From the IMG/VR virus record IMGVR_UViG_3300031566_000027, positions 1-63,192 of that record: a DNA stretch of 63,192 nt; one strand, 5' to 3'. The translations under genes and the position numbers were made by a program. This document shows positions 5,287-22,091 of the stretch, one piece after another. Each line of letters begins with the position of its first letter. The stretch's first letter is position 1. The notes below the pieces were generated by a model, which was not told the origin of the DNA, searched no databases, and saw nothing but the letters and a program-made list of their open reading frames with translations. Origin of the DNA: a virus.

Positions 5287-5298
5287 GGTCTACCTCCT

Positions 5299-6547: not shown

Positions 6548-6555
6548 GGATCCTC

Positions 6556-6744: not shown

Positions 6745-6778
6745 AAAACCCCCTTTCAACTCTATCCATCCGAAAATT

Positions 6779-6907
6779 TTAAAATAAATGCCTTGCGGCA
6801 AAAAATCCTAAAATAAATCCGAGGCATAAACCGTATACCGTAAATATGATAAGGCCCAGCAACGGTGAATCGTTTTCAATAATTACTTCTTTTTTTTCAT
6901 TATCCAT
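6779..6907 (-). CDS. Small membrane protein
   Basis: 42 residues from the ATG at 6907 (AAAAGG site). A charged N-terminus is followed by one membrane helix with glycines (LLGLIIFTVYGLCLGFILGF). It may act in the inner membrane, for example in exclusion or lysis control; there is no direct evidence. Confidence 0.6.
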   Translation of the reverse strand: MDNEKKEVIIENDSPLLGLIIFTVYGLCLGFILGFFAARHLF

Positions 6908-6923
6908 TTTAACCTTTTCTTTT

Positions 6924-7202
6924 TCATAACCGACCATTTTCCTCAAAATCAAATAGGATCTGATCCGGATCATAGGTCATGGTTTCGGAATCCTTAACGC
7001 GGATCTTAACAAAGTTGATCTCGGTTTTTACTCCGATCTTGCCCTTATCGGTCCGGGCAATCTGGCATCCGAAACCGACCTTGACATTATGGCCGCCATC
7101 GATAAAGGCCACCTGGATATCATCCGCGTACTGCTCGAAAAACTTATCGATCGTCCGCATGGCCGCCTGCTTAACTGTCTGTAATTTTAATTTATCGCTC
7201 AT
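6924..7202 (-). CDS. Hypothetical protein
   Basis: 92 residues, with AAGGGGG before the ATG. A helical N-terminus (VKQAAMRTIDKFFEQYADD) is followed by beta-strand-like sequence (GHNVKVGFGCQIARTD, GVKTEINFVKIRVKD). A compact alpha/beta protein with no recognised family. First gene after the terminator-like structure at 7240-7320. Confidence 0.65.
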   Translation of the reverse strand: MSDKLKLQTVKQAAMRTIDKFFEQYADDIQVAFIDGGHNVKVGFGCQIARTDKGKIGVKTEINFVKIRVKDSETMTYDPDQILFDFEENGRL

Positions 7203-7239
7203 GGTTCCCCCTTATTACCGTTAGTTTTTGTGCATTAAT

Positions 7240-7320
7240 AAAAACCTGGCCGGGCCGCAATCCTAATTGATATTCAATCGGCTACTGTTAAAAGGATTAT
7301 CAGCGCGTCACCCGGCCAGG
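7240..7320 (-). terminator. Terminator-like structure with a long, structured loop
   Basis: CCCGGCCAGG at 7311-7320 and CCTGGCCGGG at 7245-7254 form a perfect 10-bp inverted repeat. On the minus strand the second arm is followed by TTTTT (7244-7240). The 56-nt interior contains smaller pairings (AATCC with GGATT; TTGA-ATA-TCAA). It follows the gene ending at 7329. It could be a terminator with an elaborate loop or a structured RNA element. Confidence 0.6.
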
Positions 7321-7328
7321 CGGTTAAT

Positions 7329-7682
7329 CTATCCCGCACCCGCCGGCTCGGGCTCCTTTGCCTGTCCGGATATTCTTATAGGATGGCGCAACTCCACCGA
7401 TTCCACCGTTGTTAGTTCCTCACGTTGCGGACGGTTCTGGTGCACATACCCTGGATCAGGCACCGCAACCGGGCCACCGCCGGCGCGTAATGCGTTACAT
7501 TTACAATAGGCCTTTTCAACTGCCTCCGGATCCGCAAAATATTGTTTAAGGGCCTTTAGCATTTTGTTGGTGTTCTCATAGGATAATTGAGCGCATCCAA
7601 CACTCACAATGACCCCCCCGTTCACCGTTGGCTCGATAATGATACGATACGGAAACGCGAGCTCGAATTTTAAATCAGACAT
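7329..7682 (-). CDS. Hypothetical protein
   Basis: 117 residues, overlapping the upstream candidate anti-CBASS gene by 8 bases. The N-terminal 60 residues look beta-rich then helical (YRIIIEPTVNGGVIVSVG, then a segment with TNKMLKALKQYF), and the C-terminal part is proline- and charge-rich. One CKC motif is present. No family recognised; translational coupling suggests related roles. Confidence 0.62.
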   Translation of the reverse strand: MSDLKFELAFPYRIIIEPTVNGGVIVSVGCAQLSYENTNKMLKALKQYFADPEAVEKAYCKCNALRAGGGPVAVPDPGYVHQNRPQREELTTVESVELRHPIRISGQAKEPEPAGAG

Positions 7683-8070
7683 TATTTGTGCCCTCCACGC
7701 CCCGGGCCTCCCTGCCCGCCGTCCTGGTTTCGAGTGCCTCTAAGGCCGCTTTTAGATGGTAAAGGGCCGCCTCGTTCTCATCGCATTTGAATTTTGAACG
7801 CTGATAAAGTTGAATCCGGTCGATGGCCGCGAATATCACATTCTCGACAAAGGCGCCGTTTGGCACCCGCCGGGATCCATCCGGCAGGGCCAGGGGCCCA
7901 CACTGCCAGGAAATAGTAAAGCCTAAACCGGTGGCCACTCCGCCGGCCGGGTTATCCTCCGGATCCATCCAATGCTCGGAAAAAAATGTCATGGGCGCCA
8001 CGCCCATGGCTTTAAGGTCCGCCTCGGTGGTGGGCTCGATCGCTCCGCCCGTTTCGTTTTCGTTGATCAT
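7675..8070 (-). CDS. Acb2/Tad1 hairpin-domain-like protein, candidate anti-CBASS
   Basis: 131 residues with a GGAGG site. The C-terminal 65 residues show a pattern typical of small phage proteins of the Acb2/Tad1 hairpin group: NGAFVENVIFAAIDRIQLYQ, a Cys-Asp-Glu-Asn segment, a helix, then RTAGREARGVEGT at the extreme end. Known Acb2 proteins sequester cyclic oligonucleotide signals of CBASS and related defences. The N-terminal 60 residues are an additional, divergent part with a beta-like GLGFTISWQCGP stretch. The assignment rests on pattern memory, not alignment. Confidence 0.6.
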   Translation of the reverse strand: MINENETGGAIEPTTEADLKAMGVAPMTFFSEHWMDPEDNPAGGVATGLGFTISWQCGPLALPDGSRRVPNGAFVENVIFAAIDRIQLYQRSKFKCDENEAALYHLKAALEALETRTAGREARGVEGTNNV

Positions 8071-8276
8071 GGTTCCTCCGTTTCGGTATGTTGTACCTCT
8101 TTCATGTAGTTTAGGACGGTTTCCAGTGCATCAAGGTGGTGGCCGGTTATCGCCCTGGGCCAGATCTCGCCCGCGGCATCATCGACCTCCCGATCGCACA
8201 AAAATCCATCCAACCATAACCGGAGCTCATTAAGACTCTCTAATATCTCCGGATCCTTTACCGGGTCTTTCAGCAT
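8067..8276 (-). CDS. Small acidic protein
   Basis: 69 residues. It overlaps the genes on both sides (4 bases downstream, 47 upstream), so the cluster from 8412 to 7329 is likely translated as a coupled unit. Predicted helical, with RAITGHHLDALETVLNYMKE near the end. No family recognised. Confidence 0.6.
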   Translation of the reverse strand: MLKDPVKDPEILESLNELRLWLDGFLCDREVDDAAGEIWPRAITGHHLDALETVLNYMKEVQHTETEEP

Positions 8277-8412
8277 TTAATCGCCTCCTTTCATCAAATT
8301 CTTTTTTTAACAGGTTAATAATTATATCCATACGATCACCCGCCTCGAGCTCCGCGCCACTGACAACCTCGATCATTTCAATGAGCTCACCCACGGCGAG
8401 ATCGATTTTCAA
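8230..8412 (-). CDS. Small helical protein
   Basis: 60 residues, mostly helical and charged (VGELIEMIEVVSGAELEAGD, then a basic segment FDERRRLNAERP). Its C-terminal third overlaps the next gene. No recognised family. Moderate confidence only because of the long overlap. Confidence 0.5.
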   Translation of the reverse strand: MKIDLAVGELIEMIEVVSGAELEAGDRMDIIINLLKKEFDERRRLNAERPGKGSGDIRES

Positions 8413-8492
8413 CTCTCACAACTCCAAAACGGTTCGGACGATCGCATCCAGGCCGGAGGGTTCTTTTCTCGGGCGCCCTGGGCCGCGCTTTT

Positions 8493-9047
8493 TCAAAATA
8501 AATCCGCTATACTTAAATATTCTCGATCGGTCCAATAGGTATCAACTTTCATCTTACGCTCGCCCTTTTTAAGATAAATTTTCTTTTCATCAACAAGGGT
8601 TCTCAGTGCCTGGCCTAAAAGAAAACACTCCCTCTCGCGCAACCTCACCCACGCCAGAATATAACCTTTAGGTTTGTGCCGATCCCACTGGTCGACCGGG
8701 ATTAATAAATTCGGCATATTATTGATCTCGGAGGCCTTTACGTTAAAACCGTTCGGAAAATCAGATCCATCCTCAAAGCTCCGGCCATCATTCCAGGTGG
8801 TTTCGATAATCGGCCAATTAGAAAATTTAGAGTATGCCTTTTCACCGCACGCGCCGATAAAACTCCGATACCAGGGCGCCTTATTCTCAAAAAAATTCCG
8901 GCTGTTTTTAGTATCACCCTCGATCCCTCGCTTTTTTGCATACCTAAAAGGTTTCCACCGAAATTTACCCAACCACACAGAATAATGCAGATCGTCCTCG
9001 GTCAATGGGATCCGGACCGGTGTTATATAATCCATATCGGAATACAT
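8493..9047 (-). CDS. Uncharacterised protein, possibly PD-(D/E)XK-like
   Basis: 184 residues. The centre contains GACGEKAYSKF, then an acidic segment and GFNVKASEINNMP, spaced like the Glu and (E/D)xK elements of the restriction-endonuclease fold, followed by a long beta/alpha C-terminus. This is only a pattern-level suggestion and the key acidic residue before VKAS is not certain. It lies just downstream of the endolysin. A degradation or repair nuclease is one option; a structural role is another. Confidence 0.55.
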   Translation of the reverse strand: MYSDMDYITPVRIPLTEDDLHYSVWLGKFRWKPFRYAKKRGIEGDTKNSRNFFENKAPWYRSFIGACGEKAYSKFSNWPIIETTWNDGRSFEDGSDFPNGFNVKASEINNMPNLLIPVDQWDRHKPKGYILAWVRLRERECFLLGQALRTLVDEKKIYLKKGERKMKVDTYWTDREYLSIADLF

Positions 9048-9052
9048 TCTGG

Positions 9053-9493
9053 TTATCTAAATGGGTCCATAAATCCCGCCAGGCGGGGATGGCTGAAATC
9101 GATCGGCCGGTGTTTTATATAGGCGTTTTGGGCCGCCGCCGCGTCCGCGGAGGTTGTTTCGGATCCGCCGCCGCTCGCACCCATCGTATGTTTAGAGTCA
9201 AGGCAAAATTCAACATGAATGATCCTTGTTTTCGCGTTATTCCACCAAAACGCCAGGCATCCTAAACGCGGGTTCTGACACCTGGCCTCGGTAAATTTTT
9301 CATAAAGGCCGGCCGCCGTCCAATCGCCCTCTCGAGGCAGGATCCCCACGCTCTTTAGAATCTCGATGCACAATCCGCTGCAATCAAAACCCTCGACCGG
9401 ATCATCACCGCCCCATCGGTAGGGCAGGCCGTGAAGTGACCAGGCAACCTTTTCCGCTATTTGTAATTTGTGAATCAAATCGTGACTTTCCAT
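9053..9493 (-). CDS. NlpC/P60-family endolysin
   Basis: 146 residues with an AGGAGGG site. Cell-wall peptidase acting on peptidoglycan stem peptides. The catalytic Cys lies in GFDCSGL (about residue 37), the His in IIHVEFCL (about residue 93), and the leading PYRWGGDDP is the classical NlpC/P60 entry motif. There is no signal peptide, so release depends on a holin, probably the gene at 3668-4102. The gene is separated from the holin by about 5 kb of accessory genes. Confidence 0.85.
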   Translation of the reverse strand: MESHDLIHKLQIAEKVAWSLHGLPYRWGGDDPVEGFDCSGLCIEILKSVGILPREGDWTAAGLYEKFTEARCQNPRLGCLAFWWNNAKTRIIHVEFCLDSKHTMGASGGGSETTSADAAAAQNAYIKHRPIDFSHPRLAGFMDPFR

Positions 9494-9505
9494 TAATTCC
9501 CTCCT

Positions 9506-9709
9506 TTAATCGCCTAAAAATTTAAAAGCTGATTCAATGGCGTCCTCATAACCCGCACCGATAGGCCGGTAAAGCGCCCGTTGGATCTCATGGGGCAGCT
9601 GTTTAAAACATTTATAACAAAGGGAGTTGCCACTTTTTTTATAATTATCGCAATTCGGGCACTCCTCGGACTTTAGCGATTTTATGTAAAAGATTCTATC
9701 CGTTTTCAA
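9506..9709 (-). CDS. Small zinc-ribbon protein
   Basis: 67 residues using a TTG start at 9709 that overlaps the stop of the upstream gene, with AAGGGG seven bases before. Two Cys pairs (CPNC and CYKC) form a likely zinc ribbon. Longer readings upstream would overlap most of the preceding gene and are less likely. Probably part of the replication cluster. Confidence 0.6.
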   Translation of the reverse strand: MKTDRIFYIKSLKSEECPNCDNYKKSGNSLCYKCFKQLPHEIQRALYRPIGAGYEDAIESAFKFLGD

Positions 9710-10142
9710 TTTTAAACCCCTTATATTCCGCCTCGAACCTTTTAAGACGGAGTTTGCCCCTGGTGGTGCCATGGACCTTTTGCCAATTCTCACAGGATCC
9801 GCACAAAATAAGGCCGGTGGCCGGCCGGCCGTCTGGTCCAGTGTATTTTGCAATAAAATAGCCCTGGCCAAAACAATCAGCACACTCCTCATCTGGTAAT
9901 TTAGGCCTCGCCTCCGGGTGTTCTCGATAGTAAATACTGACATATTCCCTGATTTTATTGAGCATATTATAGGGCCGGCGGTCCAATTCTGCTTTCATAA
10001 CATCTAAAACCGCCGCAAATGTTTGTAGGCTCAACCTCTCAAAATAGCCAAACCAGGAATTGATTGCCTTATTTGGAGGCCGGTCCTGATCTATAAAATC
10101 AAAAAATTCATCGATCGTTAGTTTGTATTCTTCAAAATCCAC
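9696..10142 (-). CDS. Putative replication accessory / helicase-loader-like protein
   Basis: 148 residues with a GTG start inside the end of the replication initiator gene (25-base overlap, GGAGAGGAG site). The N-terminal 85 residues are helical with the INSWFGYFERLSLQTFAAVL pattern reminiscent of small helicase-loader domains. The C-terminal part carries CADCFGQGYF and CGSC, a DnaJ-type or ribbon zinc site. The position beside a lambda-O-like gene matches that of P/loader genes. Family not certain. Confidence 0.55.
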   Translation of the reverse strand: MDFEEYKLTIDEFFDFIDQDRPPNKAINSWFGYFERLSLQTFAAVLDVMKAELDRRPYNMLNKIREYVSIYYREHPEARPKLPDEECADCFGQGYFIAKYTGPDGRPATGLILCGSCENWQKVHGTTRGKLRLKRFEAEYKGFKIENG

Positions 10143-11059
10143 TGCTTAAACTCCTCTCCGTTAATTCGTTTATCCTGACAATATGCCAGGCAGGCCTCCT
10201 GGCCTGATTCGCGCAATATCCCCGCCGCGATCCTAAAGCTGCGCTCTTTGATCCTTTGATTCTCTGAAATAGTTACTTTTTTGCGGCGTTTGGCCTCCAT
10301 GAGATAGCCCTCAAACTTGGTAGGCCGGAATAACGTGCCTGGCCGTAAATAGGCTATCATTTTAGGATCACCGATCCACTGGTCGGTTTTACAGAGGATC
10401 ACATCATAAAAATCCTGTTCGGTGAATCCGGATTTAAAACGGGCCCGGATCGCCGCCCGGGTTTCCTTTGCCCGGTGGTCAAAGTTGGATCCGGTTAGTT
10501 TGTTAAAATAAGAAATGATATTTTCGTATGGTGGCGGTGGATTTTTTTTCTCAGGGGGAGGGGCAGGATCCGGCGCCGGATTTTCGGCGCCAGTACTTTC
10601 TTTTATATTTTCTTTTATACTTTCTTTATATAAGGTAGGATTGGCCCCTGGGCCAACTACTGTACCCCCTGGGCCAACTACTGTACCCCCTGGGCCAATT
10701 TTGGCCCCTGGGGTAGGTTTTGGCCCCTGGGCCAATTCTTTCCAATTCTTATAATACTTGTTAAATTGGTAGGTTTTGACCTTTTGGTTGGCCCCCAGGC
10801 TAATAGAAATTATATTTCGATCTATTAATTTTTGCCGGGCCTTTCCAATGTGCCATCCTGGCAAATTTGTCTTTTCAATCAATTCCCGGGTTTCAATTTT
10901 TGCCGACTTACGACCATAAACCCCATAGGTTAATCGGATGATTGCCAGGGCCAGACGCATTTCGGCGTTACTGCACTTTAATCGGCACAAGGCCTCCAAT
11001 AGTTCATTCGCAAGCCTCGTATATCCGTCCTCGATTTGCGGAGCTCCGTTTTTTGCCAT
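10118..11059 (-). CDS. Replication initiator, lambda-O-like
   Basis: 313 residues. The N-terminal 100 residues form a winged-helix module (NAEMRLALAIIRLTYGVYGR, KTNLPGWHIGKARQKLIDRN) like phage replication protein O domains that bind origin iterons. A Gly/Pro-rich repetitive linker (about residues 110-180) follows, then a C-terminal domain with AYLRPGTLFRPTKFEGYL, the signature of a phage replication C-terminal domain. The linker DNA contains repeated palindromic elements (10641-10738), as in lambda where the origin lies inside O. Together with the next gene it would recruit the host replicative helicase. Confidence 0.85.
   Translation of the reverse strand: MAKNGAPQIEDGYTRLANELLEALCRLKCSNAEMRLALAIIRLTYGVYGRKSAKIETRELIEKTNLPGWHIGKARQKLIDRNIISISLGANQKVKTYQFNKYYKNWKELAQGPKPTPGAKIGPGGTVVGPGGTVVGPGANPTLYKESIKENIKESTGAENPAPDPAPPPEKKNPPPPYENIISYFNKLTGSNFDHRAKETRAAIRARFKSGFTEQDFYDVILCKTDQWIGDPKMIAYLRPGTLFRPTKFEGYLMEAKRRKKVTISENQRIKERSFRIAAGILRESGQEACLAYCQDKRINGEEFKQWILKNTN
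10641..10738. other. Candidate replication origin iterons inside the initiator gene
   Basis: The core CCCCTGGGCCAA recurs four times in under 100 bases. Two copies are extended to the perfect palindrome TTGGCCCCTGGGCCAA (10641-10656 and about 10720-10736), and two central copies are joined by identical ACTACTGTACCCCC spacers. The repeats encode the GPGGTVV linker repeats of the initiator. Placement within an O-like gene parallels lambda ori. No flanking AT-rich unwinding element was measured, though 10595-10640 is AT-rich. Confidence 0.6.
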
Positions 11060-11071
11060 CGGATCGCCTCT

Positions 11072-11296
11072 CTAATTGATGATGGTTTCTCTAATGACAA
11101 ATAGATCCTTAACCTCCATTTCCAGGGCCGCCGCTATCGCCTTTTCCTCCTCATCGGTCGGCCTCATCCGCCCGCGCTTGATATATGAAAAAACACTTGG
11201 ATCAAGGCCGGCTATTTTTGCGATCTCAACACTCGGCCTTTTTTTTTCAACCAGGGCCCGCTCTAACTCCCAATTATGAAATGCCTCAATTTTCAT
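11072..11296 (-). CDS. Cro/CI-type HTH regulator
   Basis: 74 residues with AGGA upstream of the ATG. Residues about 20-45 (PSVEIAKIAGLDPSVFSYIK) form an XRE-type helix-turn-helix. It is the first gene leftward from the divergent control region at 11.30-11.46 kb and probably regulates one or both divergent promoters. With no integrase or larger repressor seen, it is better viewed as an early/late regulator than as proof of lysogeny. Confidence 0.8.
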   Translation of the reverse strand: MKIEAFHNWELERALVEKKRPSVEIAKIAGLDPSVFSYIKRGRMRPTDEEEKAIAAALEMEVKDLFVIRETIIN

Positions 11297-11337
11297 CTAA
11301 TAATCCTCCAAAAATATATGGTTTGTTTTATATTTTA

Positions 11338-11365
11338 TTTATATCCTGATTTATTTATTTGTCAA
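11338..11365 (-). promoter_or_regulatory. Sigma-70-type promoter, leftward
   Basis: On the minus strand TTGACA (11365-11360) and TATAAA (11343-11338) are separated by 16 bases. The transcript would start about 35 bases before the HTH gene and drive the replication and accessory genes. The region is AT-rich with ATTTATTT-type direct repeats that could serve as operators. Confidence 0.7.
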
Positions 11366-11377
11366 TCTTTTTATTTC

Positions 11378-11406
11378 TTGACAATAATCCCCCAAAGTGG
11401 GATAAT
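11378..11406 (+). promoter_or_regulatory. Sigma-70-type promoter, rightward
   Basis: A perfect TTGACA (11378-11383) and GATAAT (11401-11406) are separated by exactly 17 bases. It lies just upstream of, and partly overlaps, the sigma-28-like promoter at 11412-11438, so the early rightward operon has tandem promoters. Confidence 0.8.
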
Positions 11407-11411
11407 TTTAC

Positions 11412-11438
11412 TAAAGTCCTAAATAAATATGCCGATAC
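11412..11438 (+). promoter_or_regulatory. Sigma-28 (flagellar FliA)-type promoter, rightward
   Basis: TAAAGTCC (11412-11419), an 11-base spacer and GCCGATAC (11431-11438) match the sigma-28 consensus TAAAGTTT-N11-GCCGATAA at 13 of 16 positions, with optimal spacing. A second copy with shared flanks is at 21082-21109. The transcript would begin about 15 bases before the ATG at 11459. This implies that the early operon can be read by the host flagellar sigma factor. Confidence 0.72.
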
Positions 11439-11458
11439 AGATATTAGAGGTTAAAGGT

Positions 11459-12250
11459 ATGAAACATATAAACCAGGAAATGACCGAAAAAATAATCGAG
11501 CTCCGCGACCGTGGGGCTGTTTTTTTTGTCAACCATTCCGGGGGAAAGGATTCTCAAACCCAAACCCTCGAGATCTCGCGCCTTGTTCCGGTCGATCAAA
11601 TTGTTATCGTCCACGCCGATCTGGCTGAACAGGATTGGGATGGCGCGTTCGATCACCTGGTTAATACCGCGCCTGCCGGCGTCAAGATCACCAAATGCCG
11701 ATCGCGCCGAACCTTTTTTCAAATGGTACGCGAGCGGGGTATGTGGCCGTCACCTAAATACCGCCAGTGCACTTCCGATCTGAAACGTACTCCGATCGAA
11801 AAGGTTATCCGCCATGAATTAAAAGCCAGGGGCACCAAACTGGCCGTTAATTGCATGGGGATTCGCGCCGAGGAGTCTTACACCCGGGCAAAAGCAAAAC
11901 CCATCAAAATAAATAACCGACTGAGCAAGGCCGGCCGCGAGGTTTGGGATCTACTGCCGATATTCGATTTTACCACGCAAGAGGTATTTGAGCGGATCGC
12001 CGCGGCCGGCCAAAGGCCTCACTGGATTTATAAGCACCTGGGCCGCCTTTCCTGCATCATCTGCATATTTGGCACGCCGAGCGATATCCGAACATCGGCG
12101 GGCCTCCGTCCTGATATTTTTAACGAGTGTGTGGCCATCGAAAAGGAAATTGGCCATACCGTTAAGATCGGCGCGACTCTCGAGGAGTTTGCCGGCCTTA
12201 ATAAAATCGGTGGTTGCAAGGCCTGCGACCACTGGAAAGAGGTAGCTTAA
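11459..12250 (+). CDS. PAPS-reductase-family (PP-loop ATPase) protein
   Basis: 263 residues from the ATG at 11459; an in-frame ATG at 11429 lies inside the promoter and is excluded. The PP-loop SGGKDSQ is near residue 28, followed by the family's Arg/Cys elements (RQCTSDLKR) and a C-terminal CIICIFGTPSD. Phage members are often called phosphoadenosine phosphosulfate reductases, but the fold also serves nucleotide and DNA modification (DndC type). No other sulfur genes are present, so a role in nucleic-acid modification or anti-defence is more likely than sulfate assimilation. Confidence 0.82.
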   Translation: MKHINQEMTEKIIELRDRGAVFFVNHSGGKDSQTQTLEISRLVPVDQIVIVHADLAEQDWDGAFDHLVNTAPAGVKITKCRSRRTFFQMVRERGMWPSPKYRQCTSDLKRTPIEKVIRHELKARGTKLAVNCMGIRAEESYTRAKAKPIKINNRLSKAGREVWDLLPIFDFTTQEVFERIAAAGQRPHWIYKHLGRLSCIICIFGTPSDIRTSAGLRPDIFNECVAIEKEIGHTVKIGATLEEFAGLNKIGGCKACDHWKEVA

Positions 12251-12441
12251 TGAAAACGAAACCAGATAATAGAGTCCATGTATCGGCGCCAGGCGCCAAA
12301 TTTAATACGATCGGCTTTTGGTACAAAACCCAGGGCGGTTTTTTCCGCGCTTATAGCCTGATCTCTCATATTGGCATCGGTCCTTTTTTTACCAAACATG
12401 ACGCCATTCAATTCTTAATCGAGGAGGCCTTTAATGTTTAA
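12250..12441 (+). CDS. Small hypothetical protein
   Basis: 63 residues; the ATG overlaps the preceding stop in a TAATG junction. Mixed strands and helix (NTIGFWYKTQGGFFRAYSLI, KHDAIQFLIEEAF). No family recognised. Translationally coupled to the genes on both sides. Confidence 0.6.
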   Translation: MKTKPDNRVHVSAPGAKFNTIGFWYKTQGGFFRAYSLISHIGIGPFFTKHDAIQFLIEEAFNV

Positions 12442-12694
12442 TGAAATTCAAGACAACATTCAAAAAGCTGTAAAATACCGAGGCACTAAGGATTTTCTCG
12501 ATACCGAAAGCGGTATCGATTGGTTTTTGCTGCCGGCTGCCGCCGTTTCCGGGATCTCCGATGATACCCTGATATGTGCCTTAAACCTGGAAACCTATTA
12601 TGGCGGAGTTGGCCGGTTTTTCCGCCACAATGCAACCATTTGGCGCGTTAAAAACCGCGTCCTGGTTCAATCCTATTGGGGGTACGATATCTAA
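12434..12694 (+). CDS. Hypothetical protein
   Basis: 86 residues with a GAGGAGG site lying in the end of the preceding gene (8-base overlap). Helical N-terminus then aromatic-rich C-terminal half (VGRFFRHNATIWRVKNRV). Unknown family. Confidence 0.6.
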   Translation: MFNEIQDNIQKAVKYRGTKDFLDTESGIDWFLLPAAAVSGISDDTLICALNLETYYGGVGRFFRHNATIWRVKNRVLVQSYWGYDI

Positions 12695-12888
12695 TGAAAA
12701 AATCACACTTTATAAAAATTATGACGATTCTCAACAGGCGAGGGGAATACCTTTTTCAGCGGTATTTTGAGGGGAACCGAGGCGATGAGTTGTGGGCCCG
12801 CTATATTGGTTTCATGCGTGCCGCGAACGATTTTTACAATCGGTTCATTGAGGAGTGCTACAAACCAGAAATCGATATCTATGTCTAA
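12694..12888 (+). CDS. Small hypothetical protein
   Basis: 64 residues, starting at the ATG in a TAATG junction at 12694. Basic N-terminus, then aromatic helical sequence (YLFQRYFEG, MRAANDFYNRFIEE). Unknown. Confidence 0.58.
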   Translation: MKKSHFIKIMTILNRRGEYLFQRYFEGNRGDELWARYIGFMRAANDFYNRFIEECYKPEIDIYV

Positions 12889-12900
12889 GGGGGGAAAGCC

Positions 12901-13239
12901 ATGCAAATAACCTTATCGCTCGCTCAGTGTGTGACTTTGTACGAGAACCATTTCAAAAAAGAAATGCCGCCCAAACTGGCCTATAAAGCTGCCGCGCAAA
13001 TGGTCCATGCAGATATTGGGTCAGATGAATTTTTGTTCCGCCTTAAACGCCTCGACCGCGATGGCACACACAAAAAACAGTATACCATCTATAAGGATAT
13101 CGAGGAGGCCGGCGAGTCCTACACGGTTTATGACAATGACCTCGATGTGTATGTCGGTCAATTCCTGGCCGATGATGTTGACCTTAAAACCTACCTGGCC
13201 GCCGGCGAGCTCCGCGATGGCCTGGATAACCGATCATAA
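12901..13239 (+). CDS. Hypothetical protein
   Basis: 112 residues with a strong GGGGGGAAAG site. The C-terminal half is acidic with a beta-like segment (SYTVYDNDLDVYVGQFLADD). Unknown family; part of the early operon. Confidence 0.65.
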   Translation: MQITLSLAQCVTLYENHFKKEMPPKLAYKAAAQMVHADIGSDEFLFRLKRLDRDGTHKKQYTIYKDIEEAGESYTVYDNDLDVYVGQFLADDVDLKTYLAAGELRDGLDNRS

Positions 13240-13256
13240 GAAAGGATCTGATACCC

Positions 13257-13403
13257 ATGGAACGAAAAAAATACCGGTTTAGATGCACCAGTGCGATAAC
13301 CATGAAACGCAAAAACTTTGTGCTGCCCTGTTTGAATCCGGGGCAAATCATAGCCCTTTTGGCACAGCATGGATGGATCGTTCAGAATTATTACGAAATT
13401 TGA
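13257..13403 (+). CDS. Small basic protein
   Basis: 48 residues with GAAAGGA upstream. The N-terminus is strongly basic (MERKKYRFRC), followed by a hydrophobic helix ending in NYYEI. Its stop leads straight into the AAAGGAGGG site of the next gene. May bind nucleic acid or a membrane surface; unknown. Confidence 0.55.
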   Translation: MERKKYRFRCTSAITMKRKNFVLPCLNPGQIIALLAQHGWIVQNYYEI

Positions 13404-13417
13404 AAGGAGGGATTGAA

Positions 13418-13531
13418 ATGATCAGACCAGGGAAACTCACCAGGGCCCGGCGGACGGCTTATGTAGCAGGTATGATGTTTTGGGCCTGTGGGATGATGAT
13501 GGTTTTGGCTTTTGGATTGATGATCAACTAA
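13418..13531 (+). CDS. Tiny membrane protein
   Basis: 37 residues, near-perfect AAAGGAGGG site. A basic N-terminus (RPGKLTRARR) precedes one membrane helix rich in Met (VAGMMFWACGMMMVLAFGLM). Orientation is likely N-in. A toxin-like, exclusion or sensor role is possible; there is no direct evidence. Confidence 0.6.
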   Translation: MIRPGKLTRARRTAYVAGMMFWACGMMMVLAFGLMIN

Positions 13532-13541
13532 AGGGGGAGCC

Positions 13542-13700
13542 ATGAGGGCATTTGTTTTTGAATTAACAGAGGGTGAACTCCGGAAAGAGGTTGATAAAAA
13601 GCTGATCGATGAATTGAGGGAAAACCTCTTTCCGGATGAGATCTATTGGTTAGAGCACGTTGCCAAAGAGAACCTAAACAAAGGAGGGATAAGGCCATGA
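13542..13700 (+). CDS. Small acidic protein
   Basis: 52 residues, GGGGGAG site, ending in an ATGA overlap with the next gene. Helical with alternating charge (LTEGELRKEVDKKLIDELRE). Unknown; probably coupled to the pilin-like fusion downstream. Confidence 0.55.
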   Translation: MRAFVFELTEGELRKEVDKKLIDELRENLFPDEIYWLEHVAKENLNKGGIRP

Positions 13701-14395
13701 TAGATTGGATGAGTCTGACCGATGAGGACATTAACAAATTGCAGCTGATTATGAAACGGTGCATAGGCAAATTTGAGGGCAGTTGGATCGATCTGGAAAT
13801 GGATATAACGGCCGCGCACTTAGGCGGCATGATCGATCTGCAAAGACTGCTCGAGTTCGATGAGTTTGATTTCATGCACGATGTTGCCGGGATCCGGCGC
13901 CATATCAACCGTGATAACGGTAAAATGAATGATTGTTTTTTGCCCCGGAGCTATCGGCCGTGGGCAAAAAAGCGCATGGCCGGGTTCACGCTTGCCGAGG
14001 TAATGATCGCCTTGGTGATCCTTGGAATGACGGTCATGGCGGCCACAAGTATGGCGATTACAACGATCAAGCTCAATACCACCGGCAATATGCAACAAGA
14101 GGCCATCAATCTGGCCCGGGATACCGTTGAACAGGTCCGCTATCATTTCCCGGGCGATGAACCAAATGGCACTTTTTCTTATATTAAAGGGCCCTATACG
14201 GTTGTTTGGACCATTTCGGACCATACCACCAAAAGCAAACGGATGAACGTAAACGTATCCTGGAATAGGTTCCGGAGCCGAAAGGGCATGACGATTAACG
14301 CTCTATTTTCCGATCAAATGCGCGATCCGCGTTCCTGGGATGGCACCGATTGGGAGGCCTGGAAAGCTAAATTTGGAGTAACCGGATTAAATTAA
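13697..14395 (+). CDS. DUF6874-like domain fused to a type IV pilin-like domain
   Basis: 232 residues. Residues 1-88 resemble a phage protein family with the HDVxGIxRHxxRxxGK pattern (here HDVAGIRRHINRDNGK) followed by CFLPR. Residues 93-111 (RMAGFTLAEVMIALVILG) are a textbook prepilin peptidase site: cleavage G96/F97, Glu at +5, then a hydrophobic helix. A C-terminal globular part of about 110 residues follows. Prepilin leaders are usually under 30 residues, so either this is a true fusion, or a stop between two genes was lost, or the pilin starts at an internal ATG (13925) giving a 20-residue leader. Confidence 0.72.
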   Translation: MIDWMSLTDEDINKLQLIMKRCIGKFEGSWIDLEMDITAAHLGGMIDLQRLLEFDEFDFMHDVAGIRRHINRDNGKMNDCFLPRSYRPWAKKRMAGFTLAEVMIALVILGMTVMAATSMAITTIKLNTTGNMQQEAINLARDTVEQVRYHFPGDEPNGTFSYIKGPYTVVWTISDHTTKSKRMNVNVSWNRFRSRKGMTINALFSDQMRDPRSWDGTDWEAWKAKFGVTGLN

Positions 14396-14405
14396 AGGGG
14401 GATCT

Positions 14406-14720
14406 ATGAAAAAACTAATCATCATAATTGTTGCAGTTATCCTGGCCGGGTTCTGCCTGGGAGTCGGCTATCAGGCCGGCAAGATGCAGGGCAAGGCTAA
14501 TTGTATCGCCACGGTAACAGAAAACTGCCGGGAAATCTGCGGTGTTGGTGACGATTTTTGTTACCCGGACGATGAGGAAACCGCGATCGAATCCGAGGGC
14601 GATGAGAATCTCGCCTTTTACGGGGGGGGGCCGTGGATAAATTCAAACCGGCAATATTGCCGATACCGACAATCAAGGCCTTGCGGCGGAAATCCGGATG
14701 CTCCAAAAAAGAGGCTATAA
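14406..14720 (+). CDS. Membrane-anchored Cys-rich small protein, end uncertain
   Basis: As read, 104 residues with a GGGGATC site. A basic start and a hydrophobic helix (KKLIIIIVAVILAGFCLGVG) anchor it, followed by a Cys-rich acidic part (CREICGVGDDFC). At 14622-14630 there is a run of nine G. With one G fewer the frame would stop in a GTGGATAA overlap exactly at the start of the next gene, giving 77 residues. The last 25 residues as read are therefore doubtful. Confidence 0.6.
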   Translation: MKKLIIIIVAVILAGFCLGVGYQAGKMQGKANCIATVTENCREICGVGDDFCYPDDEETAIESEGDENLAFYGGGPWINSNRQYCRYRQSRPCGGNPDAPKKRL

Positions 14721-14989
14721 GGGTGATTGAATCCTTAAAGGGCGGCCAACACTGGCTAAACGATACCTATCAGGTAGAGGTCCGAGAGCACTGTCCGGGC
14801 CGGGATTGGCCGCCTATGTTATGGTTGAGCATTAAACGGCGCGATAAGGAATGGATCCACGATTGGCGCGAATTGCAGGAAATCAAAAACCAGTTGATTG
14901 GCCCGGAACATGAGGCCGTTGAATTATATCCCTCTGAATCGCGGGTTATCGATGGCGCGAATCTACATCAGCCGCAAAAAGAATTATAA
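14633..14989 (+). CDS. DUF7694-like phage protein
   Basis: 118 residues with a GTG start after the poly-G run, which provides the ribosome site. The segment LSIKRRDKEWIHDWRELQEI, then KNQLIGPEHEAVELYPSESR, then VIDGANLHQ matches a widespread small phage protein pattern (DUF7694 as I recall it). Function unknown. Confidence 0.72.
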   Translation: MDKFKPAILPIPTIKALRRKSGCSKKEAIRVIESLKGGQHWLNDTYQVEVREHCPGRDWPPMLWLSIKRRDKEWIHDWRELQEIKNQLIGPEHEAVELYPSESRVIDGANLHQPQKEL

Positions 14990-15004
14990 AGGAGCAATGG
15001 TTAA

Positions 15005-15187
15005 ATGAGAAAAACAATATATCAATGTAATTTATGTGAGCAACAATGGGAAGAGGATTATGTATTTGGAGTTTCACTAGATGGAGATGAATTAGGTAGA
15101 GATGAGGTAATTCTAGTTGAAGCAGAAGATTCCGAAAAACATATATGCAGAGGGTGTATCATAGCTATCAAAGGATATGAAAAATAA
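15005..15187 (+). CDS. Small Cys-pair protein in AT-rich patch
   Basis: 60 residues with a GGAG site. Two pairs of Cys (CNLC near the start and CRGC near the end) suggest a zinc ribbon. The DNA is far more AT-rich than the neighbours and lacks the GATC sites common elsewhere, suggesting recent acquisition. Stop and next start overlap in ATAATG spacing. Confidence 0.65.
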   Translation: MRKTIYQCNLCEQQWEEDYVFGVSLDGDELGRDEVILVEAEDSEKHICRGCIIAIKGYEK

Positions 15188-15441
15188 TGCCTTATGTAAA
15201 ATGTTCTAAATGTATGCATGAATGGGAGACTACAAACTTGAAAGAAAAATGCCGTTGGTGTAAAGCCCCTATTGGTAATGTTTTAGAAGAAGAGACACCA
15301 CAATATCACCTTTATTGCTTTCAGGATCCTAACCTTAGATTCCCATTTGGTATGTGGAGTAACGGACCGGCCAGGGCCACGCCCGAGCACGCCGAAAAGT
15401 TGGGCGGCAAACAAAGACCTTTTGAAAAGGGGGAAAAATGA
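15187..15441 (+). CDS. Zinc-ribbon protein with a composition break
   Basis: 84 residues. The N-terminal part carries CSKC and CRWC pairs. Base composition switches from AT-rich to the phage norm at about 15350, within codons for the FGMWSNGPARATPEH segment. This suggests recombination inside the gene that joined a foreign 5' part to a resident 3' part. Confidence 0.65.
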   Translation: MPYVKCSKCMHEWETTNLKEKCRWCKAPIGNVLEEETPQYHLYCFQDPNLRFPFGMWSNGPARATPEHAEKLGGKQRPFEKGEK

Positions 15442-15893
15442 AAGTACGGGTACACGGCCGAAATTATTATGATCTGATCTGCACCCAGGATCACTATATT
15501 TTCGCGTTCAAACACAAAACACCCGCAATCCTGCCCCTCCGGATGCCGATGGCCTGCGGTGAGATCTTATGGCCCGGTGATATCATTTCTTATATTGGGG
15601 GCAAGCGGACCAGTGCCGGATTTTACTGCCTGGATATGCTGCCGGATTGCGGCCTGATGTTCGCCGGAGTCCATATCGATGATGATGGAGAATTTTTACT
15701 TTGTTTCGACCGCACCCGGAACGGCAAATTCCTGCCGACTGAAAACCATGAGTATCCGCGGATCTATTATGGATATATCTGGTTAGGCCAGGAAAACTGC
15801 CTTTGCTACACACTGCCTGGCAACGCCGGCCGGGTTGTCGAAACCTCAACCGTTAAATTTTTAGCGAGGGGATGCCGGGATGAATATAAATAA
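15438..15893 (+). CDS. Hypothetical protein
   Basis: 151 residues starting in an ATGA overlap with the preceding stop. Beta-rich, with several Cys and aromatic residues (ISYIGGKRTSAGFYCLDMLP, YYGYIWLGQENCLCYTLPG). No family recognised. Confidence 0.65.
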   Translation: MKVRVHGRNYYDLICTQDHYIFAFKHKTPAILPLRMPMACGEILWPGDIISYIGGKRTSAGFYCLDMLPDCGLMFAGVHIDDDGEFLLCFDRTRNGKFLPTENHEYPRIYYGYIWLGQENCLCYTLPGNAGRVVETSTVKFLARGCRDEYK

Positions 15894-16077
15894 ATGTAAA
15901 TGCGGGGCGGATATAGCGTTTATTGAAATGGCGAGCGGGAAAAAAATGCCAATAGACGCCCAATGGGAAAACATGGTCTGGATCAACCAGGGAGGCGCCG
16001 GCCAAATGGTTAAGGTTTACCGGCCGCATTGGGGCACCTGCCCCCTGGCCAAACAATTTAAAAAGAAAGGGGATTGA
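15880..16077 (+). CDS. Small zinc-binding protein
   Basis: 65 residues overlapping the previous gene by 14 bases. CKCGA at the N-terminus and HWGTCPLA at the C-terminus could form one zinc site, with KKMPIDAQ between. Similar small proteins with CxCG...HxxxCP patterns are common in phage replication clusters. Function unknown. Confidence 0.68.
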   Translation: MNINKCKCGADIAFIEMASGKKMPIDAQWENMVWINQGGAGQMVKVYRPHWGTCPLAKQFKKKGD

Positions 16078-16080
16078 TCA

Positions 16081-17157
16081 ATGGATGCAAAAGAAAAGTT
16101 TTTGTTGGCGATGGAAAAGGCAAAGCAGGATGGATGGAATATCATAACGCCGGCGATCACCACCGAGGGCCTAACACCCCTCCACTCGGTTACGGTTGAA
16201 CATATCGAGCTCTCGCCTAATCCTAAAGACGGTGACGTATATTCACACGATAAAGATAAAATGATCATCAACAAACATGGCCTGCAAAAGCTATCAAACC
16301 TGGCCGGCATTGAAATGATAGATACGATGCGGACCGATAACGGGTCTGATCGCCAGTATATCAGCTTTAAGGCCGGAGGGTTTATCCGCAAGGCCGATGC
16401 CTCCGTGGTTATGTGTGTGAAAACATACGCGATGGATTTTGAAGTCATTGAGGAAAAGGTTTTAGAGTTGTACCAGGAAAAAATGAAAAAGTGGTGCAAG
16501 GATAAGGCAAAAACCGCCTGGCCCAATAATTTAACCGAAAATCAGAGGCAGGAATATATCAACTTTAACGCCCGGAAAGAGGTACGGCGCCGCCGCGAAT
16601 ATAAGGTCCAACTTTGTGAATCAGGGGCCCAGGCCCGGGTTATGCGCGATCTTTTAGGCCTTAAAGCATTTTATTCGCCGGCGGAGTTGCAAAAACCCTT
16701 TGTGGTGGTCCGCATAACGCTTAAACCAGACTATGAGGATCCGGCCATTAAGATGATGCTCACCCAGGCGGCGATAAGCGCCTCTGGCCAGGTGTTCGGT
16801 CATGCTCCGGGGTATCCGCCGGCGCTTGCCGCGCCTGCCGCGCCTGCCGCTCAAATAACACATGAGGATCCGGATATACCCGAGCCCGCCGCCATGCCTA
16901 ACGGAGGGCCTATCGAGGATGCCGATTACGAGGAGGCAGCTGCCGCCGCCGGCCCGCCGGATCCGGCCGAGGTCGCCCGCGCCGACTTTGAGGGCGCCGA
17001 TGATAAAAACAAGATCAAAATGATCGAAAAGCTCATGGTTCTGAAAGGATATGACAAAAAACAGTTGAAAAAACCCCTGGGCCAATTTTCAGATGTTCAC
17101 CTTTTAACTTTTTATGATGCGTTATCCGCGATGCCGGATGATGATATCCCATATTAG
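16081..17157 (+). CDS. Putative recombination / ssDNA-annealing-type protein
   Basis: 358 residues. The N-terminal 235 residues are alpha/beta with a segment (CESGAQARVMRDLLGLKAFY, then PFVVVRITLKPDYEDP) seen in uncharacterised phage recombination-associated proteins. A low-complexity Ala/Pro/acidic linker (about 245-305) connects to a short basic C-terminal helix bundle and an acidic DDDIPY tail like those of SSB or annealing proteins. It lies just upstream of the SbcCD pair. Ends in TAG followed at once by the next gene's GGAGGAGG site. Confidence 0.5.
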   Translation: MDAKEKFLLAMEKAKQDGWNIITPAITTEGLTPLHSVTVEHIELSPNPKDGDVYSHDKDKMIINKHGLQKLSNLAGIEMIDTMRTDNGSDRQYISFKAGGFIRKADASVVMCVKTYAMDFEVIEEKVLELYQEKMKKWCKDKAKTAWPNNLTENQRQEYINFNARKEVRRRREYKVQLCESGAQARVMRDLLGLKAFYSPAELQKPFVVVRITLKPDYEDPAIKMMLTQAAISASGQVFGHAPGYPPALAAPAAPAAQITHEDPDIPEPAAMPNGGPIEDADYEEAAAAAGPPDPAEVARADFEGADDKNKIKMIEKLMVLKGYDKKQLKKPLGQFSDVHLLTFYDALSAMPDDDIPY

Positions 17158-17170
17158 GAGGAGGATCCTG

Positions 17171-18603: not shown

Positions 18604-21071
18604 TGAAACTAATCGATTTAAAACTAAAGGGATTTATAGGCCTGAAAAAGGGCATGGGCCTCGAGGAAATCAATCTGCCCCTCGGGAATCTATCCGGCCT
18701 GGTGGCGCTCGATGGACCGAACGGCCGCGGAAAAACCACGATTCTTGAAAACCTGCAACCGTTCCGCCAATTCGCAAGCCGAAAAGGAGGATTGAAAAAA
18801 CACTGCTTTGCAAAGGATAGCCAGAAAGAATTAACTTTCGAGTATCAGGGGGATATCATCCGGACCTTGATAAAAATGGACGCACACACTACCCGGAGCG
18901 ATGAGGGCTTTATCTGGATTAACGATCAACCGATGGTGGATGGCAAAGTTTCCAGTTATGACGCGGCGATTCAAGAAATATTTGGATCCCCTAACCTGTT
19001 TTTCTGGTCGATCTTTTGCGCACAAAATAGCAAGCGCCTGATTGACCTGAATACCGGGAAACTTAAAGAGTTATTCACCGAGTTTTTACGCCTCGAACGG
19101 TATCAGATATTCGAGGATACCACAAAAATGGCCCTGGGGTTGCTGCAAGGGATCGGGTCCGCGGCCGAGAATAGCCTCAACCGCGCCGAAAACGATCTGC
19201 TTTTGTATCAAGGGTTCCGTTTCGATGAGGCTATCGATAATTATGTTACTCAAAAAACCGAAAACGAGGCCTCTTTAAAAGATATCGACCATCAGATCGA
19301 AACCCTGCAAAAAGGCCTCGAGGATGCAAAAACCGAGCTCGCGCTAAATGAGGAAAAATCGAAACAACTAAAGGTTGTCACCCTGGACTTAGGCAAGGCC
19401 CGGGATGGGTTAAAGGCGCTCGAACAGGAAAGGGCGGCCAAACATACCGCAATCGGTGAAAAGATGGCCCGTACACAAATGGATCTAAACCGGATCAAGG
19501 AAAGGTTACTTGACTCCGAGCGGATTCGCGCAGCTGCCGACCGGTGCATCACCCTGGATAATCGGATCAGAACCCTGGCCGGCGAGCTCGATATCGCTTA
19601 TACGGCCCGGGAGGCCATTCAAAGCGATCGCGGCGCCCTGAATGAATCCCTTGCGGCCACCATAAGGCTTATTGATGATAACCAGAACAGCCAAATCATT
19701 AAGCAGGCCGAGGCCAAAGCAAACGAATTGGCAACCAGGTATAAGGGGGTTGAGGAAAATTCGATTGATAAGGATCCGGATTTTATCAAAATGAACGCAA
19801 ACCATGCCGCCCTGATTAAGCAATCCGGTGCCCTGGATCAAAAGGATGCGGACTGTATTAGCGAAAAGTGCGGCCTGATTGTCGATGCCATTCAGGCCAA
19901 AAAGGACGCCGCCGAGCTATTAGATAAGATCGCTCAATATACAACCAGGTGGGAAAACGGCAAGCAAGAATCTCTCGATGAGATCCGCAAGGTCCGCCGC
20001 GAGGCCGAGGACCACCTTAACGCGCTTATAAAAAAGGCCGAGGAAAAGATACAAGAATGTGCGCTTTCCGCGAATGATATTAAGGCCAAAATCAAGTTGG
20101 TAAACGAGGATCTCGATGGAATCAATAAGTCTATCGGCGTAAAACTGGCCCAAAAGAAAACCCTCGAGGCCGAATTTAACGAACTGTCCGCGGATGCAAA
20201 ACAGTTAAACGATCTTGATATGGCCGCCATACGGGTCGCCAACCATGAAAAAGCGATCGATGATTTAAAGCTCGAGCTCGCGGAGATAGCTAAAGAATAT
20301 ACCGCTAAAGAGTCCGCTCACCAAAAATTGATCGAAACCCTTAACGATCGCGTGGGAGAGATCAAGATCAACCATGGCGCCGCCCAGGAATACGCCATAA
20401 TGGAAACCGGCCTAAAGGGCGCCCGGGAGTCGCGGGCCAGGTACGTTGAGCATATCAAACAGGCGGAAAACAAAATAGCCGATCTTGCTAAATCTAAAGA
20501 AAAAATGGCCGATCTTAAAAAGGTCCGTAACGAAACCCTTAAACGGAAAATGCAGATATCGGCCGAGGTTTCAGAATGGACCTATCTAAAAACGGCGTGC
20601 GGTAAAAAAGGCTTGCAGGCGCTTGAAATTGATGCCGTATCGCCCACGATCGAGGCCTATGCCAACGATCTTTTAATCTCAACCTTTGGCCCTGGCAATA
20701 CGATCCGGTTTGAAACCCAGGACGCCGATGGCAAAGAGGTTCTAAATATCGTTGTTATGGATCCGGACGGTTCCGAAACGCTACTGGAAAACAAATCCGG
20801 AGGCGAGGCGGTATGGATCCTAAAGGCCTTACGCCTGGCCCTCACCCTGTTATCAAAGGAAAAGGGCGGTCGAAACTTCAAAACGGTGCTCATGGATGAG
20901 GAGGACGGCGCTTTATCGCCGGCAAACGCCGTTAAATTCATCGGATTATATCGATCCATGATGGATATCGGCGGTTTTGATACCTGTTTTTACATTTCTC
21001 ACAAGCAAGAGGCCGTTGGTTTATCCAATCACCGGTTAATCTTTGGTGAAAACGGCATCCAAGTTGATTAG
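18603..21071 (+). CDS. SbcC/Rad50-like (gp46) ATPase
   Basis: 822 residues. Walker A GPNGRGKTT near residue 40, ABC signature KSGGEAVW near 735, Walker B VLMDEEDGALS near 765, with long coiled-coil arms between. The usual zinc hook CxxC at the coil apex may be represented by CISEKC (CX4C) near residue 420, a departure from the canonical spacing. Works with the SbcD-like partner. The TAG stop abuts the second sigma-28-like promoter. Confidence 0.93.
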   Translation: MKLIDLKLKGFIGLKKGMGLEEINLPLGNLSGLVALDGPNGRGKTTILENLQPFRQFASRKGGLKKHCFAKDSQKELTFEYQGDIIRTLIKMDAHTTRSDEGFIWINDQPMVDGKVSSYDAAIQEIFGSPNLFFWSIFCAQNSKRLIDLNTGKLKELFTEFLRLERYQIFEDTTKMALGLLQGIGSAAENSLNRAENDLLLYQGFRFDEAIDNYVTQKTENEASLKDIDHQIETLQKGLEDAKTELALNEEKSKQLKVVTLDLGKARDGLKALEQERAAKHTAIGEKMARTQMDLNRIKERLLDSERIRAAADRCITLDNRIRTLAGELDIAYTAREAIQSDRGALNESLAATIRLIDDNQNSQIIKQAEAKANELATRYKGVEENSIDKDPDFIKMNANHAALIKQSGALDQKDADCISEKCGLIVDAIQAKKDAAELLDKIAQYTTRWENGKQESLDEIRKVRREAEDHLNALIKKAEEKIQECALSANDIKAKIKLVNEDLDGINKSIGVKLAQKKTLEAEFNELSADAKQLNDLDMAAIRVANHEKAIDDLKLELAEIAKEYTAKESAHQKLIETLNDRVGEIKINHGAAQEYAIMETGLKGARESRARYVEHIKQAENKIADLAKSKEKMADLKKVRNETLKRKMQISAEVSEWTYLKTACGKKGLQALEIDAVSPTIEAYANDLLISTFGPGNTIRFETQDADGKEVLNIVVMDPDGSETLLENKSGGEAVWILKALRLALTLLSKEKGGRNFKTVLMDEEDGALSPANAVKFIGLYRSMMDIGGFDTCFYISHKQEAVGLSNHRLIFGENGIQVD

Positions 21072-21081
21072 GATAATTTGC

Positions 21082-21109
21082 TAAAGTTCTAAAAGACAAA
21101 TGCCGATAA
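21082..21109 (+). promoter_or_regulatory. Second sigma-28-type promoter
   Basis: TAAAGTTC (21082-21089), 12-base spacer, GCCGATAA (21102-21109), matching the flagellar sigma consensus at 15 of 16 element positions. The surrounding GGATAATTTnCTAAAG sequence is shared with the copy upstream of 11459. The transcript would include the hairpin at 21190-21242, the VRR-NUC gene and a pilin-like gene. Spacing is one base longer than the usual 11. Confidence 0.72.
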
Positions 21110-21131: not shown

Positions 21132-21362
21132 ATGAAATTCGATTATCTTATAAGGCTATTTGGCCAAATTTGTGAGGAAAAGATATCGGGGCCCTGGGGC
21201 CCAGGCATACGGCGTTCGTATCGCCTGGGCCCTCTCAGGGCCGTTTCTGATGAAATTTTTCTATACCATGGTGGCCTGTTACACATGAAACATTCAAAGT
21301 GCATAGGAGTGACGCCGGGATGGATTATTCAAAAAAACGATCAGAATATGCCGAACAGGTAG
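21132..21362 (+). CDS. Small hypothetical protein, doubtful
   Basis: 76 residues from an ATG with AGGGG upstream. Its middle is encoded by the long hairpin at 21190-21242, and its last 43 bases overlap the VRR-NUC gene. No family. Either a short coding sequence containing a structured element or a leader RNA with a fortuitous frame. Confidence 0.4.
   Translation: MKFDYLIRLFGQICEEKISGPWGPGIRRSYRLGPLRAVSDEIFLYHGGLLHMKHSKCIGVTPGWIIQKNDQNMPNR
21190..21242 (+). ncRNA. Long stem-loop in the leader of the second sigma-28 transcript
   Basis: An outer 7-bp stem (GGCCCTG at 21190-21196 with CAGGGCC at 21236-21242) is stacked on an inner stem. There GGGCCCAGGCATACG (21197-21211) pairs with CGTAT-C-GCCTGGGCCC (21217-21232), with one bulged C and a GCGTT loop. 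In total 22 base pairs, far stronger than any other fold noticed. No U-run follows, so it is not a standard terminator. Possible roles: attenuator, RNA stability element, regulatory RNA or protein-binding site. Confidence 0.6.
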
Positions 21363-21760
21363 CGGTTTTCTTGTGGGCGGCCATGTACGAATCAATGTAT
21401 CCGGATCTTTGGTTAATGTCCGGATCGATTATGGGCGGCACAAAAATACCGTTTAAGATCCTGGCAAAGTGGAAAAAATCAGGCATGAAAAAGGGCAAAC
21501 CGGACATTCAGCTGCCGGTGGCCAGGGGCGGATATATCGGCCTGTGGATTGAATTAAAAACGGCCGGTGGTAAAGATCCATCCTCCGAACAGGTTGAATA
21601 TTTAAAGCGATTGGCAAGGGCAGGGCACTATTGCGTGTGTTGCAAGGGGTCCGATGCGGCGATCCAAGTGATTAAGCGGTACGTTAATGGTAAGATAATC
21701 AAGGGAGGTTCGCAAAATGTTTTATTTGATGAAAGACAAAACGGGGTTTACGCTTATTGA
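21320..21760 (+). CDS. VRR-NUC-type nuclease
   Basis: 146 residues from the ATG at 21320 (AGGAG site). Contains GKPDIQLPVARGGYIGLWIE followed by LKTAGGKDPSSEQVEYLKRL, the GxPD...(E/D)xK arrangement of the PD-(D/E)XK VRR-NUC family, which cleaves branched or flap DNA. Phage members are usually standalone and small like this one. The 3' end overlaps the pilin-like gene by 44 bases. Transcribed with recombination genes or from the sigma-28-type promoter. Confidence 0.87.
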   Translation: MDYSKKRSEYAEQVAVFLWAAMYESMYPDLWLMSGSIMGGTKIPFKILAKWKKSGMKKGKPDIQLPVARGGYIGLWIELKTAGGKDPSSEQVEYLKRLARAGHYCVCCKGSDAAIQVIKRYVNGKIIKGGSQNVLFDERQNGVYAY

Positions 21761-22091
21761 GATCATGGCCGTTCTGGTCATTTTGGGCGTAATTTTTCCG
21801 GTAACGATCAAAAAGTTTAATAATTTTGCAGATAATGCTATCATTATGCAGTTTGATCGAATTGAACGCGAGCTCAACGTGCGGGAAATGGTTACATTTG
21901 CCGATCACCGGATTTCCGGGCGATACACCGATGATGCCGCCCTGTATGCCGCGATCGATTACAACCTGGGCGATGCCAAGTGGATAGCGGGCCCGGCGCC
22001 GGATGGCGGCCAAGTCGGGATCAAGGGGATAACCCGGGCGCTTAAAAGGGTTCAGAGCTCGCCAAAAAAACCGGCCGCGTGGGTAAAGTGA
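21717..22091 (+). CDS. Type IV pilin-like (pseudopilin) protein
   Basis: 124 residues with a GGGAGG site. The leader MFYLMKDKTG ends in Gly, followed by FTLIEIMAVLVILGV: prepilin peptidase cleavage site, Glu at +5 and hydrophobic helix as in PilE/GspG/GspH. The C-terminal part is a short globular domain of about 95 residues, smaller than most major pilins. No pilus assembly gene accompanies it, so it would depend on host prepilin peptidase and machinery. It may alter or block host type IV pili or type II secretion. Confidence 0.82.
   Translation: MFYLMKDKTGFTLIEIMAVLVILGVIFPVTIKKFNNFADNAIIMQFDRIERELNVREMVTFADHRISGRYTDDAALYAAIDYNLGDAKWIAGPAPDGGQVGIKGITRALKRVQSSPKKPAAWVK

Follow-up and report, generated by a model that had tools for sequence, protein, structure and literature searches.

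Two sites in a podovirus genome, together with the orthologues of one of them in related viral contigs, are probably promoters of the sigma-28 (FliA) type, to judge from their sequence. Site 1 lies ahead of the early operon, just downstream of a sigma-70-type promoter; site 2 lies ahead of a nuclease/pilin-like cassette. Host FliA polymerase likely transcribes from these sites, in addition to the sigma-70 promoter. Sigma-28 (FliA) promoters serve late flagellar genes in bacteria, and phages are generally taken to begin with the host housekeeping sigma factor. If our reading is true, this phage adds the motile state of its host to its first transcriptional decision. Our searches of the open-access literature, whose coverage makes absence there weak evidence, turned up no phage early operon described as controlled by FliA.

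The window, by which we mean the whole stretch analysed, is a podovirus record of 63,192 bases. Genes for a portal protein (phrog_156), a major head protein (phrog_334), an internal virion protein (phrog_511) and replication protein O were recognised in it, and none for a tyrosine integrase. The major head protein shares 49-51% identity with those of Lessievirus-type phages and Pseudomonas phage Itty13. Upstream of the head protein gene, on the minus strand, 57229-57711 encodes a protein with hexapeptide repeats that by eye resembles an acyltransferase or a carbonic anhydrase; in Lessievirus phages this position is taken by a CsrA-like regulator. The portal gene is seen as two ORFs of the minus strand, 59630-61015 and 61061-61903, matching the N- and C-terminal parts of phrog_156; the split would stem from a frameshift, from an insertion or from an error in sequencing. 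The same strand holds, at 22297-40302, a single ORF of 6001 aa with ResIII/SNF2/Helicase_C helicase-type domains in its C-terminal half and no NCBIfam match in its N-terminal third.

Searches for relatives used sbcC, the head and XRE-like proteins, and the extended pattern given below. They yielded G001 (3300037540_000254), G002 (3300027881_000012), G003 (3300010430_000349), G004 (3300010430_000421) and L188 (3300010392_001041). Matches to the early region, searched with the 358-aa protein of 16081-17157 and with the XRE-like protein, are confined to a clade of six contigs.

Site 1 occupies a 162-bp gap between a divergent, leftward XRE/Cro-like gene and the rightward early operon, which opens with a PAPS reductase-like gene and continues through small proteins and SbcCD up to 22.3 kb. 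The features of this control region are:

11072..11296, minus strand: XRE/Cro-like DNA-binding protein of 74 aa, putative repressor, divergent from the early operon
11360..11365, minus strand: TTGACA, putative repressor-gene -35, set back to back with that of the early sigma-70 promoter
11378..11406, plus strand: sigma-70-type promoter TTGACA-N17-GATAAT, 11/12, with TG one base before the -10
11393..11405, plus strand: conserved block CAAAGTGGGATAA, providing the sigma-70 -10 in the window
11412..11438, plus strand: site 1, sigma-28 (FliA)-type promoter TAAAGTCC-N11-GCCGATAC, with orthologues in G001-G004 and L188
11446..11450, plus strand: ribosome-binding site AGAGG, 8 nt ahead of ATG 11459
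11459..12250, plus strand: PAPS reductase-like protein, first gene of the early operon (phrog_424, 2.8e-29; PF01507, 2.8e-7)

The 74-aa protein has no match in Pfam, PHROG or NCBIfam, so that its putative assignment as an XRE/Cro-like helix-turn-helix protein was made by inspection. It is 51-58% identical to its homologues in four other phages, with 29 invariant columns. The two back-to-back -35 boxes form TGTCAA-N12-TTGACA, an arrangement that occurs once in the window (0.01 expected) and is found in four relatives too. Further into the operon, 12434-15893 (plus strand) is a run of small early proteins, several of them without homologues in the early regions of relatives that were searched; this part of the operon is fast-changing.

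The original prediction placed a sigma-28 promoter right after a sigma-70 promoter, and the boxes are indeed as described. TTGACA (11378-11383) and GATAAT (11401-11406) form the best sigma-70-type match within positions 1-20000, with a score equalled in 5 of 1000 local shuffles. Site 1 begins 5 nt past GATAAT, with TAAAGTCC at 11412-11419 and GCCGATAC at 11431-11438. Its -10 box falls within the longest ORF call (ATG 11429); the AGAGG at 11446-11450 points instead to ATG 11459 as the start of the early operon. From the -10 box to the ATG there are 20 nt at site 1 and 22 nt at site 2, and both sites have the right orientation.

Against the consensus TAAAGTTT-N10-13-GCCGATAA, site 1 scores 13/16. 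Dinucleotide-shuffled windows contain 3.1 sites at 13/16 and 0.16 at 14/16 or better, so that by consensus count site 1 is not special window-wide. The comparison with shuffled sequence, put forward with the prediction as its control, thus gives the claim no support when the consensus is counted over the whole window. Within the 162-bp intergenic region, 5 of 1000 shuffles match the score of site 1. Not significant alone, site 1 is rescued by three further lines: site 2, the conserved boxes in relatives and the FliA matrix scores.

Site 2 was absent from the prediction and is a better match than site 1. With its downstream genes it comprises:

21071..21109, plus strand: site 2, sigma-28-type promoter GGATAA-N5-TAAAGTTC-N12-GCCGATAA, 15/16, with no sigma-70 promoter beside it
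21132..21362, plus strand: small protein, first gene behind site 2, with homologues 51-53% identical in G001/G002
21320..21760, plus strand: nuclease-like protein, related to a phage Holliday-junction resolvase family (phrog_824, 1.1e-26; phrog_5702, 2.5e-15)
21717..22091, plus strand: prepilin-like protein with a GspG/GspH-like N-terminus (PF07963, 1.3e-6; TIGR02532 over cut-off)

The two boxes of site 2, TAAAGTTC-N12-GCCGATAA at 21082-21109, are the best consensus match in the window; their score is expected 0.01 times per shuffled window and was reached in none of 1000 local shuffles. The site begins 11 nt past the sbcC stop codon, and AGGGG stands between its -10 box and ATG 21132. Its N12 spacer is less usual for sigma-28. 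The best sigma-70-type match beside it scores 7/12. Sites 1 and 2 have in common TAAAGTYCTAAA-N6-9-GCCGATA, for which 0 occurrences are expected, and the extended element reads GGATAATTT-N1-2-CTAAAGTYCTAAA-N6-9-GCCGATA. No counterpart of site 2 is present at the sbcC junction of G001, where the genes overlap, or of G002. The prepilin-like protein of 21717-22091 has a homologue in G002 (43% identical). It is one of two in the window, the other being PilV/GspI-like (13967-14395, plus strand) and an in-frame read-through from a DUF6874 ORF; pilin-like genes within a phage early operon look unusual.

We scored the sites with a weight matrix built from 39 E. coli FliA ChIP-seq motifs (PMC4183435). 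On this E. coli-based matrix site 2 scores 23.4, the top value of the window, compared with 24.7 for E. coli tar; site 1 scores 18.1, the third value. Among the relatives, G002 reaches 21.6, G004 19.1 and G001/G003 about 15.4, so that all sites span 15.3-23.4; E. coli sites bound by FliA have a median score of 15.7. Across 40 shuffled windows, sites scoring at least as high as site 1 occur 0.1 times per window and none reaches site 2. Sites 1 and 2 score within the range of real E. coli FliA sites. A FliA motif is no proof of transcription, as many motifs bound in vivo yield no detectable RNA: over half of the E. coli FliA sites are intragenic, mostly without detectable RNA (PMC4183435).

All six contigs with the XRE-like gene carry TAAAGT-N13/14-GCCRATA between that gene and the early operon, in the same orientation. 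The five relatives hold four distinct versions of the promoter, its sequence being identical in G004 and L188; with the window, the six contigs thus give five versions. Between the octamers the spacing is N11 in site 1, G001, G002 and G003, and N12 in site 2, G004 and L188. G001-G004 each score 14/16 against the sigma-28 consensus, a value matched 0-1 times per 1000 local shuffles; G001 and G003 have GCCAATAA, a weaker -10. Consensuses for sigma-32, sigma-54 and sigma-E gave no stand-out score in the same local-shuffle test; the high sigma-S scores in relatives come solely from an overlap of that motif with the sigma-70 promoter.

We consider it very unlikely that the likeness arose by chance and was kept by recent common descent, in a leader conserved for other reasons. 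Such an account would fit the shuffle-level score of site 1 taken alone, the closeness of the G001, G003 and G004 leaders to one another, and the lack of the site in more distant relatives and in six cultured ones. It fits poorly with a spacer that has diverged while the boxes were kept: 12 of 13 box positions are invariant among window site 1, G001 and G002, versus 3 of 13 in the spacer (Fisher p=0.0005). Nor does it account for site 2, which reaches 15/16, stands a short way ahead of a ribosome-binding site and has a matrix score that shuffling never produced. Conservation in relatives and the second copy together lend good support to a sigma-28-type promoter in tandem with sigma-70 ahead of the early operon, as originally proposed.

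The reach of the element was examined in wider collections. An IMG/VR scan for its extended form gave seven stretches, of which three are true relatives and the other four have the match in unrelated context (the near-identical L019, L023 and L024, plus L020). A narrower pattern of what sites 1 and 2 have in common gave no match, the window's own record possibly lying outside the collection. The element of the site 1 type is missing from more distant relatives, and TAAAGT-N13-GCCGATAA at up to 2 mismatches is missing from six cultured records of the wider Lessievirus-type/Itty13 group; the trait thus appears limited to the uncultivated clade. Two other accounts of the leader were rejected. The site does not travel with the PAPS reductase gene, since none of 16 viral contigs with relatives of that gene has a sigma-28 site at 14/16 or better. 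An RNA element was discarded too, the predicted folds of six leaders being weak and without a structure in common.

In G001-G004 the sigma-70 promoter is a 12/12 match with an N18 spacer: a perfect TTGACA-N18-TATAAT stands farther upstream and is followed by the CAAAGTNGGATAA block, with CAAAGTGGGATAA about 22 nt downstream of the separate TATAAT. This separate promoter makes tandem sigma-70 and sigma-28 control the rule in the clade. In the window, a deletion-like rearrangement seems to let the CAAAGTNGGATAA block serve as the -10. The block, between the sigma-70 and sigma-28 promoters, is conserved in the window and in the leaders L187, L185, L186 and L184. Sigma-28 does not explain its conservation; perhaps it serves the XRE-like protein as an operator or forms part of the initial transcribed region.

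The conserved block also bears on another reading, in which the TAAAGT/GCCRATA boxes and CAAAGTNGGATAA, about two helical turns apart, are bound by a regulator that the phage encodes, for example the XRE-like protein, and their sigma-28 likeness is coincidental. In every version of site 1 a distance of 19-20 nt separates CAAAGT from TAAAGT and again TAAAGT from GCCRAT, the region adjoins the repressor gene, and CAAAGTNGGATAA is conserved without a sigma-28 role. We nevertheless hold this reading to be unlikely. A repressor dimer would be expected to bind a palindrome or a repeated unit, and the boxes show neither one. TAAAGT-N13-GCCGATAA is the exact bipartite consensus of FliA, with scores like those of E. 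coli sites that FliA binds. Site 2 has no CAAAGT half and sits 10 kb away from the repressor gene, yet no other site matches sigma-28 as strongly.

Returning to sigma-28, the question is which factor would read these promoters. No close prophage and no tRNA gene was found as a clue to the host. The nearest head proteins in cellular genomes are 69% and 68% identical to that of the window and belong to metagenome-assembled Syntrophorhabdus and 'Proteobacteria' genomes. Of the five genomes with the closest head proteins that were tested as candidate hosts, four have FliA above the curated cut-off. In 46 genomes of the order of the Syntrophorhabdus genome, one candidate host order, TAAAGT-N12-14-GCCGATAA occurs 21 times, versus 3 for a reversed control. 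By sequence inspection, the genes that follow encode FlgM-like, MotA-like, chemotaxis-receptor-like and signalling proteins. The counts and these flagellar-type genes indicate that the sigma-28 consensus applies in the order.

Phages often use specificity factors of their own, and this phage has many genes to which no function is assigned. In principle the sites could be read by a different sigma factor, or by an RNA polymerase factor peculiar to the phage, whose specificity resembles that of FliA. We regard this as highly improbable: the window has no match to FliA/WhiG, neither the window nor G001-G004 has one to Sigma70_r4 (E<=0.1), and the early operon must be transcribed before such a factor exists. 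FlgM had no match in the window or G001-G004 either. As no phage sigma factor was found, host FliA is the likely reader of the sites.

We propose the following scheme. The sigma-70 promoter, in the divergent control region by the repressor gene, would give default early transcription. The sigma-28 promoter just downstream, read by host FliA-RNA polymerase, would drive the same operon and add transcription once FliA has become active, as it does in motile cells when the hook is complete; it would possibly lie beyond the reach of the repressor. Its predicted start is about 14 nt before ATG 11459, at the ribosome-binding site. Stand-alone site 2 would place the nuclease/pilin-like cassette under the same FliA signal. 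What counts mildly against a sigma-28 promoter is the shortness of the predicted leaders, about 14-17 nt; at site 1 the ribosome-binding site would stand at the extreme 5' end. In the bacteria, the -10 box lies 27-35 nt from the start of the flgM-like gene.

That a phage operon so controlled might strictly need a motile host, as the prediction allowed, is argued against by the strength of the sigma-70 promoter in relatives. More modestly read, the sigma-28 promoter would supply an additional input linked to motility. It is possible, if on balance doubtful, that in this podovirus clade the early switch is coupled to the flagellar sigma factor; host motility would then govern the decision or the speed of infection, and a second FliA promoter would put a pilin-like gene in the regulon.

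Among known phages, the Lessievirus-type Burkholderia phages DC1, JC1 and BcepMigl and Pseudomonas phage Itty13 have genomes of the same size, about 61-63 kb; their group differs in the promoter element, as seen above. In Bdellovibrio, pilin genes of a TAD pilus operon, which do not belong to the flagellar set, are under FliA control (PMC5430801), and site 2 likewise precedes a prepilin-like gene; that case is bacterial and experimentally tested, whereas ours is known from sequence alone. Flagellin-remodelling prophages (TldR/FliCP) are reported to have a FliA-dependent promoter in an invertible element beside csrA-tldR loci (PMC13418256) and, as we propose here for our phage, tie their genes to the host flagellar system. 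Their theme is flagellin and its regulators, and that of our phage an early operon and a nuclease/pilin cassette, with no flagellin or TldR among the annotated genes of the window. E. coli class 3 flagellar promoters (tar, tsr, motA; flgM) have the same TAAAGTTT-N11-GCCGATAA boxes, spacing and closeness to the ribosome-binding site. The phage site differs in driving early genes instead of flagellar or chemotaxis genes, in standing in tandem with a strong sigma-70 promoter, and in having the extra conserved CAAAGTNGGATAA upstream.
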